The notes beneath the pieces are model-generated. The model was not told where the DNA came from, did no database searches, and saw only the letters and a program-made list of their open reading frames with translations. The translations under genes were made by a program, and so were the position numbers. 64,000 nt of DNA from Phycisphaerales bacterium (lineage in GTDB: Bacteria; Planctomycetota; Phycisphaerae; Phycisphaerales; UBA1924): positions 1 to 64,000 of the forward strand of contig JAJDDK010000004.1 in the NCBI GenBank assembly GCA_029260345.1, read 5' to 3'. Shown here piece by piece: positions 14,248-21,803 of the stretch; position 1 is the stretch's first letter, and each line of letters starts with the position of its first letter.

Positions 14248-14356
14248 ATGCCTTTCCTGCAGGGCGCTTGCGCCGCCTCCCGATACATGAATGGAGCGTG
14301 CGCGTCCTCACACGAGATACGCCCCAGCGCCATTCCAGTTCCACCGAATACTGCCA

Positions 14357-17300
14357 ATGACCACCGTCGCGTCGCAACCCACCGCTGTTCCCGGAGCTCT
14401 CCAGCGCAATCTGCGCGCCGTGTCAATGCGATCGCCGCACGTTTCGCAAGCGATCACCGAAGCGCCAGAGCCGCTTGATCTCGAACTCTTCGAATCTGAT
14501 GAGCGCGGCGCCATCACGGGCAGTCTCGCCAATCGAGCCCTCGCCAGCCACCGGCGCCCCATCACCGAAGCAAAGCGCCTCGCAGAAACCATTGACCCCA
14601 AAGCCGCCGGCGCCGTCGTCATTCTCGGATTTGGCCTCGGCCACCATATCGAGGCGATCGCGAGCCGATGCGCCGGGGAATGCATTCTGGTGGTCTTTGA
14701 GCCGGATGTGTCGTTGCTGCGCGCCGTCCTCTCACGCATCGATCACAGTGACTGGCTCGGCCGGGGCAATGTGGTCATCGCCACCAACCCCGCTGACGCC
14801 GCCACATTGACGTCGTCCCTGCGTGAACAGCAGGGTTTGATGACCATGGGCGTGCGCATTGCCGAACACCTCCCCAGCCGTCAGCGTCTCGGCGACTCGG
14901 CGGCTCAGTTCTGCGAAACGTTTTCGCGCGTCCTCGCGGCGGCGCGCACGACGATCGTCACCACGCTGGTGCAATCCGAAACTACCGTGCGCAATTTCCT
15001 TGGTAACGCGCGCGCGTATGTTGAGCATCCCGGCGTCACCGATCTCGCCAAATGCGCCGCCGGCTTTCCAGCGATCACCGTCGCCGCCGGCCCGAGCCTC
15101 GCGCACAACATCGAACTTTTGAAAACGCCGGGCCTGCGCGAGCATTGCGTCATTATCGCCGCGCAAACGGTGCTCAAGCCCTTGCTCGCCAAAGGCATCA
15201 AGCCGCACTTCGTGACGTCGCTCGACTTTCACGAGATCAGTGCCCGTTTCTACGAAGGTCTCACGCCTGAACAAGTCGCCGACACCACACTGATTGTCGA
15301 ACCCAAGGCGAATCCCGCGATCATTCGCGCCTTCCCCGGACCGAAGCGTCTTCCCGCCGAACAAACACTCGATGTGTTGCTTGGCGAAGAACTGGCCGGC
15401 GATCATGGCGCTATTCGCGCCGGTTCAACGGTGGCGCATCTCTCGTACTTCGTCGCGCGGCTGCTGGGCTGCGATCCCGTCATCATGATCGGGCAGGATC
15501 TTGGATTCACTGATGGGTTGTATTACGCCAATGGCGCCGCGATCCATTCCGTGTGGTCCGGTGAACTCAACACGTTCCGCTCCCTTGAAATGATGGAATG
15601 GGAACGCATCGTGCGGCATCGACAACAATTGCGAAAAGTCACTTCCGTCGACGGCAACGAAATCTACACCGACGAACAAATGGCGACCTACCTCGCCGAA
15701 TTTGATCGCGTGATCCTCGAGGACTCCCGCACCGGACGCACTACGATCGACGCCACCGAGGGCGGCGCCGCCAAAGCAAACGCAGAGACGATGACGCTCG
15801 CGGACGCCATCGCGGCACACGTTTCCTTCGACAGCAAACCGCTCCCCAACTTCGCCGCGCCCACCGTCGCCGATTCAGACGCGGCCCAGCGATGGAACAA
15901 AGCATCACAGCGAATCGAATCAATTCGAAAGGACGTTGTTCGTCTGGCGAAACTCAGTCGAGATTCCGATCGGCTGCTTGAGCAAATGATCGACCATGTC
16001 GACGACCCCGCCGCAGTGAACCGCCTCATCCGCAAGACGCACAAGCTGCGCGATGAGGCGATGTCCATGACGACTGCGTTCGCGCTCGTGCAACGACTCA
16101 ACCAGATGGGCGCATTCAAACGTGTGCGCGCCGATCGCGAGATCACGCTCACGGACGATCTGTCGCCGCAGGAAACGCAGCGCCGGCGCATCGAACGCGA
16201 TCGCGTCAATGTGAAATGGATCGCGGAGTCATCTGATTCACTCGTGCGGCTGATCGACAGCGCCAGCGCCGATTCCGAGTCACCGAAAAAACATCTGCAC
16301 AAGCAGAATTCCAGCGTCACAGTCACAAAAGCAATATCGCCCCAGTCGGCGAAGAAGCTCGTCGGCGCTATCGTCGTGTTTGATCCTGAGCGCAGCGCCC
16401 TCGGCGTGCCGCGCGATGGCGCGCGCGATATCGCCGGTCGTCCAGCGCTCGCCTGGACGCTCGCACGCCTCGCGCAGTGCAAGCGATTGAATCGTGCCGT
16501 TATCGTCACGACCGATGAATCCGCGGCTCAGGCCATAATCGCGGCGCACCCGGTCGATCTGAATACAGACGTCGTGACCGTCGAGGAGCGCACGCTCCGT
16601 CGTCCGGGCATCGCCGCAGCAAGGCTCTTCTCCCGCACCACGTGGCGCGGCGGCATCGCCAACATCACCTGCCATGATGAAAACTTCCTCCCGGAAGCGA
16701 TTCACGAGGTGATGTGCGCTCGCGATTGGCGGGCCGCGCTGCTTGGTGGCGCAGATTGGTCGCTGGTTGATCCGCAACTGTGCGACGATGCGATCGACCG
16801 CTGGACCGAAGCAACCGGCAATCTGCTCGCGTTCTCGCAAGCGCCGCCGGGACTCTGCGGCTGCGTCATCGATCGCACACTGCTCGACCAGTGGCGCGGC
16901 TCGAAAAACCTCGGCGTGCTCGGCGCCATCGGCGGGATGCTGGGCTATCACCCGCGACGTCCCACGCCTGACCCGATCGCCCAGCGGGCCTGCGCTGCCA
17001 TCGATCCGCGCATTCGTGATGCGCACGCGCGATTCATCGTGGATGACCATCGTGCAGCGGCGTTGATTGAAGAGTTCAGCGAAGACGCGCTGACCTGGTC
17101 TGCATTGGAAGTGATCAATCGCGCCAATGCCGCCGCCCCCTGCTCGCCACACCACTATGTCATTGAATTGTGCGCCGGCCGTCCGAAACACGGTGTTGTC
17201 GCACCATGGGCGACGGGCGTGAGCGAAGATTGGAAAACCACGCCGCGGGAACGCATTGAATCCATCCTGCAAGCAATCGGCGCTGCGCGCAATGACGCGA

Positions 17301-17839
17301 TCGTCACATTCACCGGTGTCGGCGATCCACTCACGCATCCGGACATCATTGATCTGATCAGCTTCGCGAAACAATGCGGCGTTGCAGGCGCGCATGTTCG
17401 CACACCGCTGCATACAGATCGCACGATGCTCGATGCCCTGCTCAAATCGCCCCTCGATGTCTTGAGCGTTGATCTCTTCGCAAACACCGCCGCGACGTAT
17501 GAGAAACTCACCGGCGTTGAAGGTTTCCGCGCCGCGCTCGAGAACATTGACCGTCTCATTCAATCGCGAGCTGGAACACCGCCCGATGCGATGCCGTGGA
17601 TTGTGCCGCACATCACGCGCTGCGAATCAACAATTGATGAAATCGAAGGCTTTTACGACAAGTGGCTCATTGTCCTCGGCGCGGCGGTGATTGATCCGTT
17701 GCCGCAAGGGACGATCACGGGTCGCATTTCAGCATTGGACCTTCCAACCGGCGCAGCGCAATTGCGACAACGAACAACCATGGACGTCCCAATGGACGCC
17801 GACCTGAACGACATCGCTGCAAATGCGGGATGGTTATGA
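14357..17839 (+). CDS. DUF115 (Maf-like) protein fused to nucleotidyltransferase-like and degenerate radical-SAM-like domains
   Basis: 1160 residues. Residues about 80-400 are a DUF115/Maf-type domain, with PAITVAAGPSLAHNIELL (238-255) and VIMIGQDLGFTDGLYYANG (375-393). Maf proteins are linked to transfer of nonulosonic acids onto flagellin. A helical linker (about 505-640) leads to a domain at 665-880 resembling SpsF/CMP-sugar nucleotidyltransferases (GAIVVFDPERSALGVPRD, GRPALAWTLARLAQC, AVIVTTDESAAQA) but without a convincing catalytic set. Residues 930-1125 resemble a radical-SAM barrel (TFTGVGDPLTHPDIIDL) but lack the CxxxCxxC cluster motif. It overlaps neuA by 4 bp (ATGA). The upstream in-frame ATG at 14291 is less likely. 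It may be the glycosyl transferase or scaffold for the sugar made by neuABC. Confidence 0.75.
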   Translation: MTTVASQPTAVPGALQRNLRAVSMRSPHVSQAITEAPEPLDLELFESDERGAITGSLANRALASHRRPITEAKRLAETIDPKAAGAVVILGFGLGHHIEAIASRCAGECILVVFEPDVSLLRAVLSRIDHSDWLGRGNVVIATNPADAATLTSSLREQQGLMTMGVRIAEHLPSRQRLGDSAAQFCETFSRVLAAARTTIVTTLVQSETTVRNFLGNARAYVEHPGVTDLAKCAAGFPAITVAAGPSLAHNIELLKTPGLREHCVIIAAQTVLKPLLAKGIKPHFVTSLDFHEISARFYEGLTPEQVADTTLIVEPKANPAIIRAFPGPKRLPAEQTLDVLLGEELAGDHGAIRAGSTVAHLSYFVARLLGCDPVIMIGQDLGFTDGLYYANGAAIHSVWSGELNTFRSLEMMEWERIVRHRQQLRKVTSVDGNEIYTDEQMATYLAEFDRVILEDSRTGRTTIDATEGGAAKANAETMTLADAIAAHVSFDSKPLPNFAAPTVADSDAAQRWNKASQRIESIRKDVVRLAKLSRDSDRLLEQMIDHVDDPAAVNRLIRKTHKLRDEAMSMTTAFALVQRLNQMGAFKRVRADREITLTDDLSPQETQRRRIERDRVNVKWIAESSDSLVRLIDSASADSESPKKHLHKQNSSVTVTKAISPQSAKKLVGAIVVFDPERSALGVPRDGARDIAGRPALAWTLARLAQCKRLNRAVIVTTDESAAQAIIAAHPVDLNTDVVTVEERTLRRPGIAAARLFSRTTWRGGIANITCHDENFLPEAIHEVMCARDWRAALLGGADWSLVDPQLCDDAIDRWTEATGNLLAFSQAPPGLCGCVIDRTLLDQWRGSKNLGVLGAIGGMLGYHPRRPTPDPIAQRACAAIDPRIRDAHARFIVDDHRAAALIEEFSEDALTWSALEVINRANAAAPCSPHHYVIELCAGRPKHGVVAPWATGVSEDWKTTPRERIESILQAIGAARNDAIVTFTGVGDPLTHPDIIDLISFAKQCGVAGAHVRTPLHTDRTMLDALLKSPLDVLSVDLFANTAATYEKLTGVEGFRAALENIDRLIQSRAGTPPDAMPWIVPHITRCESTIDEIEGFYDKWLIVLGAAVIDPLPQGTITGRISALDLPTGAAQLRQRTTMDVPMDADLNDIAANAGWL

Positions 17840-18588
17840 AACCGCTCGGACTCATTCTGGCCCGCGCTGGCAGCAAAGGCGCTCCGGGCAAGAATCGCGC
17901 GCTGCTTGCGGATCGGCCGTGTGTGATGTGGACCATTGATGACGCCCGCGACGCAGCGCTCGCACGAATTGCCATCTCAACTGACGACGCCGAAATTCAG
18001 AATCTCGCGATGAACATGGGCGTCGACGTGATCGCCCGCCCCGCGGAACTCGCTACCGACGGCGCTCGTGTTGACGATGCAGCTCGTCACGCCATCGCCG
18101 CACTCGATGATGAAACGCTGGATCCAATCGTCATCCTGTACGCCAATGTGCCGATTCGTCCGAGCGGTCTGATTGATCGAGCATTGCAGCTTTACGAATC
18201 CAGCGGCGCCGACTCGGTGCAGAGTTATGCGCCGGTCGGAAAGCATCACCCGTGGTGGACGGCGCGCGTCGATGAATCCACCGGCGCGGTCACTCCATGG
18301 GAAGGCGATGTGATCAACCATGGTGTGTTCCGGCGTCAAAACCTTCCCCCGGCGCATATTCCGGATGGCGGCGTGCTCGTCGTGTCCCGCCGCGCACTGC
18401 TGCTGGAGATCCCGGAAGCAGGCGACGGCCCGCATGCGTTCTTCGGCATCAACCGTCGCGGCGTCCTCAACGACGAAGGCGCGGTCGTCGATATTGATTC
18501 ACCGATCGATCTCATAGTCGCCGATGCGATGCTGCGCCAGCGTGCCGCGGCGGCTGACCCATTGACCTCAACATCGAGCCGCACATGA
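17836..18588 (+). CDS. neuA: CMP-nonulosonic acid synthetase (acylneuraminate cytidylyltransferase)
   Basis: 250 residues. This enzyme activates a sialic-type acid with CTP to give the CMP-sugar donor. The N-terminal nucleotide loop GLILARAGSKGAPGKNRALL (residues 4-23) is the family signature, followed by IAISTDDAEIQNLAMNMGVDVIARP and VILYANVPIRPSGLIDRAL, and it ends with the usual INRRG...DIDSPIDLIVADA. The start at 17836 makes a 4-bp ATGA overlap with the DUF115 gene; an ATG two codons earlier is possible. Its own stop overlaps the neuB start in the same way. NeuA, PseF and LegF cannot be separated by eye. Confidence 0.9.
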   Translation: MKPLGLILARAGSKGAPGKNRALLADRPCVMWTIDDARDAALARIAISTDDAEIQNLAMNMGVDVIARPAELATDGARVDDAARHAIAALDDETLDPIVILYANVPIRPSGLIDRALQLYESSGADSVQSYAPVGKHHPWWTARVDESTGAVTPWEGDVINHGVFRRQNLPPAHIPDGGVLVVSRRALLLEIPEAGDGPHAFFGINRRGVLNDEGAVVDIDSPIDLIVADAMLRQRAAAADPLTSTSSRT

Positions 18589-19655
18589 CCGTTCCATGGC
18601 TGACGACAGCGCCGCCGTACATCATCGCCGAGATCGGCGTGAATCACGATGGCTCAGTGGAACGAGCGCTTGAACTTGTGGACGCCGCGGCGACCGCAGG
18701 GGCCAGCGCTGTCAAATTGCAACTCTTCAAGACTGACTTGCTCATGAGCCGCGCTTCGCGCCTTGCGGCGTACCAGAAATCCGCCGGCGAGCAAGACCCC
18801 TTCGCCATGCTGCGCCGACTCGAACTCACGGTTGATGAAATGGCGCCCATCGTCGATCGCGCCTCTTCGCACGGGCTGGACGCCATTGTCACCGTTTTCA
18901 GTGTCGAACTTGTGCGCGAGGCTGAGCGCCTGAACTGGAACGCCTACAAGAGCGCTTCCCCCGATGTCATCAACCGGCCACTTCTGGAAGCAATGGCGAA
19001 CACGGGTCGGCCGTTGATTGTCAGCGCGGGCGCCGCGACGCTCGAGGAAACGACGCGAGCCGCGCAGTGGCTTGATGGCGCGAGCGACCGCATCGCATTC
19101 CTGCAATGCGTCAGTTCGTACCCCACACCACCGCACGAAGCGGCACTGGGCGGGATGCTCGCGCTGCGCGAAGCGATCGAAGCGCCGGTCGGGTACAGCG
19201 ATCACACCGCCGAAACGGACACCGGCGCGCTGGCGACACAACTCGGTGCGTGCATCCTCGAGAAACATCTCACGTATGACCGCGCCGCGCGCGGCCCCGA
19301 TCATGCGGCGTCACTCGAGCCGGACATGTTCAAGGAATATGTGACACTCGCGCGCGAAGCTGCCGCGGTGCCTGCGGGACACGCAATCGATGGTGTTTCA
19401 CTCGACTCCGATCCGCGCATCGGCCCCATCGAAAAATGTGTCTCCAGCGCCGAGCGCGATGTGCGTCACGTGTCCCGGCAAAGCATTGTCGCGCGCCATG
19501 GCCTGGTCGCAGGCCAAACCATTACGCGCGCCGATCTCACCATCAAGAGGCCCGGAATCGGCATTGAACCGTGGCGGCTCAACGAAATCGTCGGTCAACA
19601 CGCCGCACGGGCGATCGAGTCCGACACGCCGCTGGTCGATGAAGACATTGCATGA
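18585..19655 (+). CDS. neuB: N-acetylneuraminate / nonulosonic acid synthase
   Basis: 356 residues. It condenses phosphoenolpyruvate with an N-acetyl-mannosamine-type sugar to form the nine-carbon acid. The TIM-barrel N-terminal signature IIAEIGVNHDGSVERALELV (9-28) and AVKLQLFKTDLLMSRAS are intact, as is GYSDHTAETDTGALATQLGA. The C-terminal SAF/antifreeze-like domain (about 295-356) reads SRQSIVARHGLVAGQTITRA and ends in KRPGIGIEPWRL. Start and stop both overlap neighbours by 4 bp. No bacillosamine- or pseudaminate-type genes (aminotransferase, dehydratase) are nearby, so Neu5Ac is the simplest product; a legionaminic-type product with other genes elsewhere is possible. Confidence 0.92.
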   Translation: MTVPWLTTAPPYIIAEIGVNHDGSVERALELVDAAATAGASAVKLQLFKTDLLMSRASRLAAYQKSAGEQDPFAMLRRLELTVDEMAPIVDRASSHGLDAIVTVFSVELVREAERLNWNAYKSASPDVINRPLLEAMANTGRPLIVSAGAATLEETTRAAQWLDGASDRIAFLQCVSSYPTPPHEAALGGMLALREAIEAPVGYSDHTAETDTGALATQLGACILEKHLTYDRAARGPDHAASLEPDMFKEYVTLAREAAAVPAGHAIDGVSLDSDPRIGPIEKCVSSAERDVRHVSRQSIVARHGLVAGQTITRADLTIKRPGIGIEPWRLNEIVGQHAARAIESDTPLVDEDIA

Positions 19656-20800
19656 GCGCTGCCCAGCCAACTCGTCGTGTCGCGGTCGTCACCGGCACGC
19701 GCGCTGAGTTTGGATTGCTGGAAACCGTCATGCGCGCCGTCGCCGCGCATCACGATCTTGAACTGCAGACCATTGTGACCGGCGCCCATCTGCTGAAGCC
19801 GTCCGAAACGTGGCGCGAGGTCGCGGAATCGTTCGACATCGCCGCGACCGTTCCGATGCAATCCACACAGGCGCCGACGCGCCTCGACGATGCGTCGGCG
19901 CTTGGCCGCGGCATTCAGGGGCTTGCTGCATCGTTTCAGGAACTTCGCCCGGATTGGGTCGTCGTTCTCGGTGATCGCATCGAAGCGTTCGCCGCAGGCG
20001 CCGCCGCGAGCATTGGGGGCATCGCCGTCGCGCACATTCACGGCGGCGATCGCGCCGAGGGCGTCGCCGATGAAGCGATGCGTCATGCCATCACCAAACT
20101 CGCGCATCTGCATTTACCCGCGACGGCGCAGTCCGCTGATCGCATTGAACGAATGGGTGAGGACGCGTCGCGCATTCACGTTGTTGGTTCACCTGCCATT
20201 GACGGACTCACCGGAACAGCGCCGCTGGACGACACCACATGGCGCGAACTCGGCCGCCCGGAGATTGTGATTCTGTTTCATCCCACCGGCCGTGCCGATG
20301 AAGACGAACACACCGATGCGCAAGCGATCCTCGATGCCTGCGCCGGTCGGCGCACGTTGGCGCTGCACCCCAACCATGACCCCGGTCGCGCCGGAGTTCT
20401 CCACGCGCTCGAAGCTCACGCCAAAGAAAGCGATGAGCTTCGCGTGATCTCGCATTTGCCGCGCCCGCAGTTTGTCGGGGCGCTCAAGCGCCTCAGCAAG
20501 AGTGGCGGCGTGGTCGTCGGCAACTCTTCAGCCGGTCTGATCGAGTGCGCCGCGTTGCGTGTCCCCGTGGTGGATATTGGACCTCGCCAGGGCGGACGCG
20601 AACGCGCCGGCAACGTCATTCATGTTGAGTCGCCGCACGTCGCCGACCTGCAAGCCGCGATCGATCAAGCGTGTTGCCTACATCTCACTGGCTTGGCTCA
20701 CCCCTATGGCGACGGCCACACCGGCGAACGCATCGCCGCTCTGCTCGCCGAGATCGACCCGTCCCAATCGGGTTATCTGCGCAAACGCAACGCGTACTAG
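19652..20800 (+). CDS. neuC: UDP-N-acetylglucosamine 2-epimerase, hydrolysing
   Basis: 382 residues. NeuC removes UDP while epimerising UDP-GlcNAc to ManNAc, the substrate for NeuB. The GT-B-fold N-terminus VAVVTGTRAEFGLLETVMRA (9-28) is the NeuC signature; DWVVVLGDRIEAFAAGAAAS and VAHIHGGDRAEGVADEAMRH match the active-site region, and VVVGNSSAGLIECAALRVPV matches the UDP-binding part. It is the last gene of the four-gene operon, with a 4-bp overlap to neuB. LegG-type enzymes acting on a diacetamido sugar look alike, so the exact substrate is open. Confidence 0.9.
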   Translation: MSAAQPTRRVAVVTGTRAEFGLLETVMRAVAAHHDLELQTIVTGAHLLKPSETWREVAESFDIAATVPMQSTQAPTRLDDASALGRGIQGLAASFQELRPDWVVVLGDRIEAFAAGAAASIGGIAVAHIHGGDRAEGVADEAMRHAITKLAHLHLPATAQSADRIERMGEDASRIHVVGSPAIDGLTGTAPLDDTTWRELGRPEIVILFHPTGRADEDEHTDAQAILDACAGRRTLALHPNHDPGRAGVLHALEAHAKESDELRVISHLPRPQFVGALKRLSKSGGVVVGNSSAGLIECAALRVPVVDIGPRQGGRERAGNVIHVESPHVADLQAAIDQACCLHLTGLAHPYGDGHTGERIAALLAEIDPSQSGYLRKRNAY

Positions 20801-20918
20801 CGCTGCGTGAGTGGTCGAAAAAAACCTCACCTTCAGGGTGATCCGCCGCAAAAGTCGCGCCCCGCTTGGGTCGATGTTCCACGAAGGCTTGCAACGCCCG
20901 AGAAGTGGAGACCCGATT

Positions 20919-21803
20919 ATGACCGTCAGCGCCGCGGACCGCCAAGCGATTGTCAATGAAGCGATTCAGGGCATCAGCCACATCGCGACCTTGCCCGAAA
21001 CGACGCTCAAGATCATTGAGCTCGTTGAAGATCCGCACTCGACGGCGCAGGACCTGCATCAGGTCGTGTCGTTCGACCCCGCGCTTTCGACGCGCATTCT
21101 CAAAGTCGTGAACTCCGCGTTCTACGGCCTGCCGGGACAGATCGGCTCGATCAATCGCGCCATCGTCTTGCTCGGCCTGAACGCCGTGAAGAACATCGCG
21201 ATCGCCGCGAGCCTCGCCAAGCTGTTCCGCGGCGGCGAACTCTGCCCGCAGTTCAATGCGAAAGATCTCTGGAAGCACTCCATCAGCACCGCCGTCGCGT
21301 CCAAGCTCGTCGCCGACAAGCTCAAGCTTGGGTTGCCCGACGAAGCGTTTCTCGCTGGTCTGCTGCATGACATCGGCGTCGTCGTCGAGATGCAGCACGA
21401 CCGCCAGAAGCTGATCGACGTGATCGCCGCGCTGGAAGTCGACAAAGATGGCGCCCCCAAGAACGACATGCTGACGCTCGAAGAAAAAATGTTCGGCGCC
21501 ACGCATCAGGACTTCGGTCAGGCGCTGTGCGAGAAATGGAAATTCCCCAAGGCGTTCTCCTTCGTCACCGGTCGTCACCACGATCCGCTGAGCCTCGCTG
21601 AAGAGAACCGCACACTGACGTCCGTCGTGTACATCGCCGATCACATCGCGGCGAGCCTGAACCTCGGATTCCGCCTTGATATCTCCGACCCCACCATCGA
21701 TCCCGCCGTGCTGCAGGACCTGGGCGTCACCGAAGCGCAGATCGCAGAAATCGTTCGAGAGCTGCCCTCGAAGATTGAAGAAGCGGAAGCACTGCTCGCC
21801 TAA
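20919..21803 (+). CDS. HDOD domain signalling protein
   Basis: 294 residues. One HDOD domain (an HD-GYP relative lacking the catalytic metal site) fills nearly the whole protein: ISHIATLPETTLKIIELVED, STRILKVVNSAFYGLPGQIG, SINRAIVLLGLNAVKNIAIA, then FLAGLLHDIGVVVEMQHDRQ. Such proteins act in bacterial signalling, often around motility or cyclic-di-GMP control. No receiver or other output domain is fused. The start at 20919 was chosen because GTGGAG lies just ahead and the domain begins at once; an upstream in-frame start at 20811 adds a poor leader. It follows neuC by about 120 bp and is closed by a strong terminator. Confidence 0.88.
   Translation: MTVSAADRQAIVNEAIQGISHIATLPETTLKIIELVEDPHSTAQDLHQVVSFDPALSTRILKVVNSAFYGLPGQIGSINRAIVLLGLNAVKNIAIAASLAKLFRGGELCPQFNAKDLWKHSISTAVASKLVADKLKLGLPDEAFLAGLLHDIGVVVEMQHDRQKLIDVIAALEVDKDGAPKNDMLTLEEKMFGATHQDFGQALCEKWKFPKAFSFVTGRHHDPLSLAEENRTLTSVVYIADHIAASLNLGFRLDISDPTIDPAVLQDLGVTEAQIAEIVRELPSKIEEAEALLA

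Follow-up and report, generated by a model that had tools for sequence, protein, structure and literature searches.

A Maf-type glycosyltransferase fused to a spiro-SPASM-like partner at the head of a nonulosonic acid cassette in Phycisphaerales

Background

What might a protein do that joins a Maf-type (DUF115) glycosyltransferase to two further domains with the folds of catalytic enzymes but without their catalytic residues, and is such a protein real? The question is raised by a gene in the 64,000-nucleotide stretch of Phycisphaerales DNA analysed here (hereafter the window), which stands directly in front of genes for nonulosonic acid synthesis. We consider it probable (roughly 0.7) that the product is a Maf-type flagellin O-glycosyltransferase acting with nonulosonate, covalently joined to an accessory pseudoenzyme partner.

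The fused gene and its cassette

The cassette comprises five genes on the forward strand:

14357..17839, + strand: fused gene for Maf glycosyltransferase, nucleotidyltransferase-like and radical-SAM-like domains (intact open frame, 1,160 aa)
17836..18588, + strand: neuA, CMP-nonulosonate synthetase with intact P-loop (ARAGSKG; PF02348, E 8e-17; alternative start 17830)
18585..19655, + strand: neuB, nonulosonic acid synthase (PF03102, E 2e-64, with SAF domain; TIGR03569 at 286 bits, below cut-off)
19652..20800, + strand: neuC, UDP-sugar 2-epimerase of the hydrolysing type (TIGR03568 at 310 bits, above cut-off)
20811..21803, + strand: HDOD-domain gene closing the cassette (PF08668, E 7e-55; 10 bp after neuC)

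An in-frame ATG at 14291 offers an alternative start for the fused gene, adding 22 aa to give 1,182 codons. An earlier note, made from the sequence alone, had described the fused gene as coupled to neuABC through 4-bp overlaps throughout. The coupling holds, in that neuA, neuB and neuC follow directly and their order is conserved across homologous loci; as to the overlaps, neuB and neuC each overlap the upstream gene by 4 bp, while neuA does so only from the ATG at 17836 (ATGA), the overlap being 10 bp from the start at 17830. The HDOD gene (20811-21803), which the earlier note left out, occupies the same place in many loci, where it is the last gene of the cassette and possibly a motility or signalling regulator.

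Among the NCBIfam models that bear on sugar identity, that for NeuC passes its cut-off and those for NeuB and NeuA fall below theirs. The genome's two large DegT aminotransferases (L192:1465-2631 and L193:1474-2661) score best against PseC, below cut-off, and are unlinked to the cassette; such PseC/LegC-like enzymes might supply a precursor of legionaminic type. In family f2, neuA and neuB are themselves fused (L046:10209-11957, L064:9119-11557, L188:6407-8179), a second independent fusion within the cassette.

The N-terminal half is of Maf type

The N-terminal half comprises three domains, followed by a linker:

14384..14956, + strand: Maf N-terminal Rossmann-like domain (residues about 10-200; PF20157 above cut-off at 32-134)
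14993..15514, + strand: DUF115/MptE-like catalytic core (residues 213-386; PF01973, E 2.8e-35)
15872..16279, + strand: C-terminal helical bundle of Maf (residues about 506-641, modelled as long helices)
16292..16351, + strand: flexible linker where the two halves are fused (residues 646-665; pLDDT <50 in the full-length model)

Assignment of this half to the Maf family, as proposed from the sequence, is borne out by Pfam matches above their cut-offs (PF01973 at 122 bits against 34.6, PF20157 at 28.3 bits against 23.5) and by structure. The full-length AlphaFold model (pLDDT 89.2, pTM 0.86) matches Maf of Magnetospirillum magneticum (PDB 5MU5) with Z 23.4 over 531 of 632 residues (rmsd 7.1, model residues 10-651), a match that spans all three Maf domains, and a sequence profile of the Maf half reaches the same entry at E 2e-13. 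The motifs AGPSL, VAH and GQD of the DUF115 core, together with D290, are invariant columns in the alignment, and NCBIfam adds a weak similarity to PseD. Like known Maf flagellin glycosyltransferases, the protein has a conserved AGPSL/GQD core, is encoded beside nonulosonate genes and co-occurs with flagellin; unlike 5MU5, to which it is 15-17% identical, it carries an extra C-terminal half of 500 aa. The high pTM of the full-length model suggests that the two halves may adopt a preferred arrangement.

A C-terminal half built from two degenerate catalytic folds

Two domains make up the C-terminal half:

16355..17122, + strand: cytidylyltransferase-fold domain whose P-loop is degenerate (approximately residues 667-922; fold match, catalytic Arg/Ser/Lys lost)
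17132..17836, + strand: radical-SAM-fold domain lacking both CxxxCxxC and the SPASM tail (approximately residues 926-1160; GxGDPL motif, 987-992)

The earlier note had read these as resembling a CMP-sugar nucleotidyltransferase without a clear catalytic set and a radical-SAM-like domain without a cluster motif. An AlphaFold model of residues 661-1160, built with 54 sequences (pLDDT 92.6, pTM 0.92), returned exactly these two folds on fold search and no unrelated ones.

In the PDB search, the first 260 residues match CMP-sugar and related cytidylyltransferases (among them 6OEW, 4XWI, 9FTC and 9T4Z) at Z 14-20, with 6OEW at Z 20.2 over 223 aligned residues (rmsd 3.3) and entries of KdsB, NeuA and PseF type at Z 14-16. 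We considered whether 6OEW might come from a spirochaete spiro-SPASM protein, as its N-terminal domain, and dropped the idea because the intact P-loop of 6OEW points to an ordinary cytidylyltransferase. In sequence, the domain is also distantly similar to the NeuA encoded in the operon (profile comparison over 54 columns, E 3.6e-5, probability 71%), with nothing comparable against the NeuB, NeuC or HDOD profiles. Unlike CMP-sugar synthetases, it lacks the catalytic Arg, Ser and Lys of the P-loop, the three positions being mostly E/D (KdsB Arg10), G/A and D/R (KdsB Lys19) in the alignment; the operon neuA keeps all three residues in at least 54 of 56 homologues. The domain has instead a conserved set of its own, which also includes G765 and P831: across the C-terminal half, R756, R764 and G832 are invariant in every alignment row, and W763, D774, E775, D805, D872, R892 and D896 are nearly so, most of these residues being common to split forms from other classes.

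The remainder of the C-terminal half matches radical-SAM barrels at Z 14-18 (GDGT-MAS, SuiB and BlsE at 17-18, with viperin, MoaA and others in the wider range), and Pfam Radical_SAM is found at residues 961-1069, slightly under its cut-off. As in radical SAM/SPASM enzymes such as BtrN, SuiB, BlsE and MoaA, a GxGDP motif is present, within TFTGVGDPLTHPD at residues 985-997, and the GxG[DE]P type is kept in most alignment rows. Unlike those enzymes, the family lacks CxxxCxxC at the cluster loop in every row aligned, whether among the 66 fused or the about 27 genuinely split forms (33 rows were first scored as split, of which six are fused or split copies ended by contig edges). One CxxxCxxC, in L151, was discounted as a cluster motif, as it sits just before the GxGDP strand and away from the cluster loop.

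Judged by sequence, the two domains are one recognisable unit, below-cut-off relatives of the uncharacterised spiro-SPASM family TIGR04321, whose name we did not find in a full-text literature search. This model is the best full-length NCBIfam match of the C-terminal half and of all ten split relatives scanned. In the window protein it matches residues 892-1103 (E 6.8e-13, 48 bits against a cut-off of 250), and in the ten split relatives it scores 93-159 bits, again below cut-off in every case, with most of the model covered, including its SPASM end. Pfam also recognises SPASM and radical-SAM domains in the split forms, most of the ten passing the PF13186 cut-off. A profile of the split forms can be aligned to BtrN at its SPASM/twitch end (E 4e-11), the radical-SAM cysteines falling opposite non-cysteine residues. 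The C-terminal CxxC of the SPASM domain is present in 25 of the about 27 genuinely split forms as against none of the 66 fused forms, so that the window protein, besides being fused to Maf, departs from TIGR04321 in having lost its SPASM tail and cysteines. Since these cysteines are absent from all fused forms, the pattern suggests a role of the iron-sulphur tail in the free-standing protein, perhaps in pairing, with the qualification that there was one fusion event and that two split forms have lost the cysteines too.

Origin and distribution of the fusion

The fused gene is kept as one frame in all 66 distinct homologues examined. Fusions of 1,150-1,470 aa, 38-53% identical, come from dozens of independent genomes or assemblies, and the fused state is the rule in four Phycisphaerales families. 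The remaining two families (f2 and f3) have the halves as separate genes, as do other planctomycete classes; the two are usually neighbours, Maf preceding the spiro-SPASM-like gene and neuA coming third, and most such loci also have neuB and/or neuC. When the Maf halves are placed in a tree, all fused forms fall in one clade, with a single change (SH-aLRT 99). A scan of the collection yielded 63 loci, nearly all labelled Planctomycetota/Phycisphaerales; nearly all that can be judged by length are fused, and neuA lies next to the fused gene in all but a few, the exceptions being mostly incomplete loci.

That the open frame is a sequencing or assembly error joining two genes, which the earlier note had named as a possible refutation, would fit the separate state of the halves in families f2 and f3, and in L177 only a single in-frame stop codon parts the Maf and spiro-SPASM-like frames. 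Against this, the same fusion recurs in dozens of independent assemblies, so that neither chance nor a sequencing join accounts for it, and the fused forms compose one supported clade; we therefore rejected an artefact, whose probability we regard as close to nil. Moreover, as the halves are separate neighbours in more distant relatives, the fusion is genuine, and it directs attention to a partner of flagellin glycosylation that has gone unstudied. The earlier remark that no protein of this architecture had been described was overstated, given that the fusion is common in four Phycisphaerales families and its C-terminal half is related to TIGR04321.

Two further observations concern distribution. 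Metagenome-assembled genomes labelled Cyanobacteria and Verrucomicrobiia (L125, L170) contain a cassette of Phycisphaerales type that falls inside that clade, and are probably mislabelled or mixed bins. In L052:11315-16361 (genome G028), two different Maf genes flank a spiro-SPASM-like gene, which suggests one partner for two transferases.

Co-occurrence with flagellin, and trimmed versions

Among 201 genomes of the order Phycisphaerales, 151 have a strong match to the fused protein and all 151 encode flagellin, 150 of them also having NeuB. Of the 50 genomes without a strong match, 12 have flagellin and 38 have neither; no strong match was found in any of the 38 genomes lacking flagellin. Outside the window's family, the 83 genomes with a strong match likewise all have flagellin (Fisher p about 1e-30 for the whole order and about 1e-23 outside the window's family, both uncorrected for shared ancestry, which the co-occurrence partly reflects). 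The genome of the window encodes four PF00669 proteins on the same contig, about 340 kb away, three of them flagellin-sized and one FlgL, the largest, which adjoins FlgK and lies near FlgI. The proposal to inspect the neighbours of homologues for neu genes and flagellin thus found neu genes adjoining in most loci and flagellin in every strong-match genome, and transfer to flagellin, as we infer it, draws support from this co-occurrence.

A shorter version of the protein occurs in seven genomes of genera g147 and g186, which have no flagellin, and in genome G256, which has flagellin and no NeuB. It keeps the DUF115 core and the whole C-terminal half, lacks the Maf N-terminal domain and helical bundle, and is about 830-1,070 aa long where the frame is complete. 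Examples, mostly from planctomycetes without flagellin or neu genes, are as follows:

L210:7277-9805, trimmed protein
L211:8038-10533, trimmed protein
L212:8441-11113, trimmed protein
L213:7586-10450, trimmed protein
L214:8622-11270, trimmed protein
L074:7407-10298, trimmed protein

These forms nest within the fused clade beside a full-length member of family f77 (SH-aLRT 99), and are derived from the full fusion. In the two trimmed loci scanned no neu neighbours were found, and a gene for a LON-substrate-binding-domain protein adjoins. Retention of the trimmed version in genera without flagellin shows that the DUF115 core and C-terminal half can serve without it, and consequently that the C-terminal half is not tied only to flagellin. 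The helical bundle of Maf has been likened to flagellin chaperones (PMC11339370), and loss of the N-terminal domain and bundle in the trimmed forms fits an acceptor-binding role of the parts lost.

Proposed function and alternatives

Under the reading that we prefer, NeuC would make a sugar of ManNAc type, which NeuB would condense with phosphoenolpyruvate to a nonulosonic acid, putatively sialic- or legionaminic-acid-like, and NeuA, with its intact P-loop, would activate this acid with CTP. The Maf half would then use this CMP-sugar to glycosylate flagellin on Ser/Thr while the flagellin is still in the cytoplasm and not yet exported. Most likely the C-terminal half, probably descended from a separate spiro-SPASM-like protein, performs neither CMP transfer nor radical chemistry; it may instead assist the Maf half as a module for docking or for handling the donor, or hold the complex together.

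Alternatively, the C-terminal half could be an active enzyme of changed chemistry, for example a modifier of nonulosonic acid or a nucleotidyltransferase with a rebuilt site, that finishes the donor before Maf uses it. The invariant R756, R764 and G832, which on alignment evidence could mark such a site, speak for this, as do the near-invariant residues, most of them common to split forms of other classes, and the GxG[DE]P motif kept in most members; yet both the P-loop set of Arg, Ser and Lys and the radical-SAM cysteines have been lost across the family, and a separate, intact neuA usually adjoins, so that we regard an active C-terminal half as unlikely. An acceptor other than flagellin, whether a surface protein or a polysaccharide, seems to us less probable still. 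It would make the link to flagellin a correlation of lineage, and is favoured by the trimmed versions of g147 and g186, which lack flagellin and, in the loci scanned, neu neighbours; however, flagellin is present in all 151 genomes with strong full-length matches, 83 of them outside the window's family, compared with 12 of the 50 others, and what the trimmed versions have lost is precisely the Maf N-terminal domain and the chaperone-like bundle (PMC11339370).

A broader and more speculative idea, which we hold tentatively and think rather improbable, is that the DUF115 core and C-terminal half are a self-standing glycosyltransferase machine, whose two C-terminal domains would form a new functional site. 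Most lineages would have turned this machine to use on flagellin, and it would have taken on another target where flagella were lost.

Significance

Each of the folds is already known, and the C-terminal half resembles a named family; in the literature searched we found no description of the pairing of Maf with a double pseudoenzyme, of its fusion, or of its redeployment. Spiro-SPASM-like proteins have been named and left unstudied; the link to flagellin glycosylation that emerges from gene order, from the fusion and from co-occurrence makes their role testable. The pairing of Maf with a probable pseudoenzyme shows clearly how two catalytic folds can become a companion to a third enzyme, and the intermediate stages can still be seen: split forms with SPASM cysteines, fused forms without them, and forms trimmed after the loss of flagellin. 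If the companion sets the choice of donor or acceptor, it would help to explain how Maf enzymes find their sugar and their flagellin, which is poorly understood.
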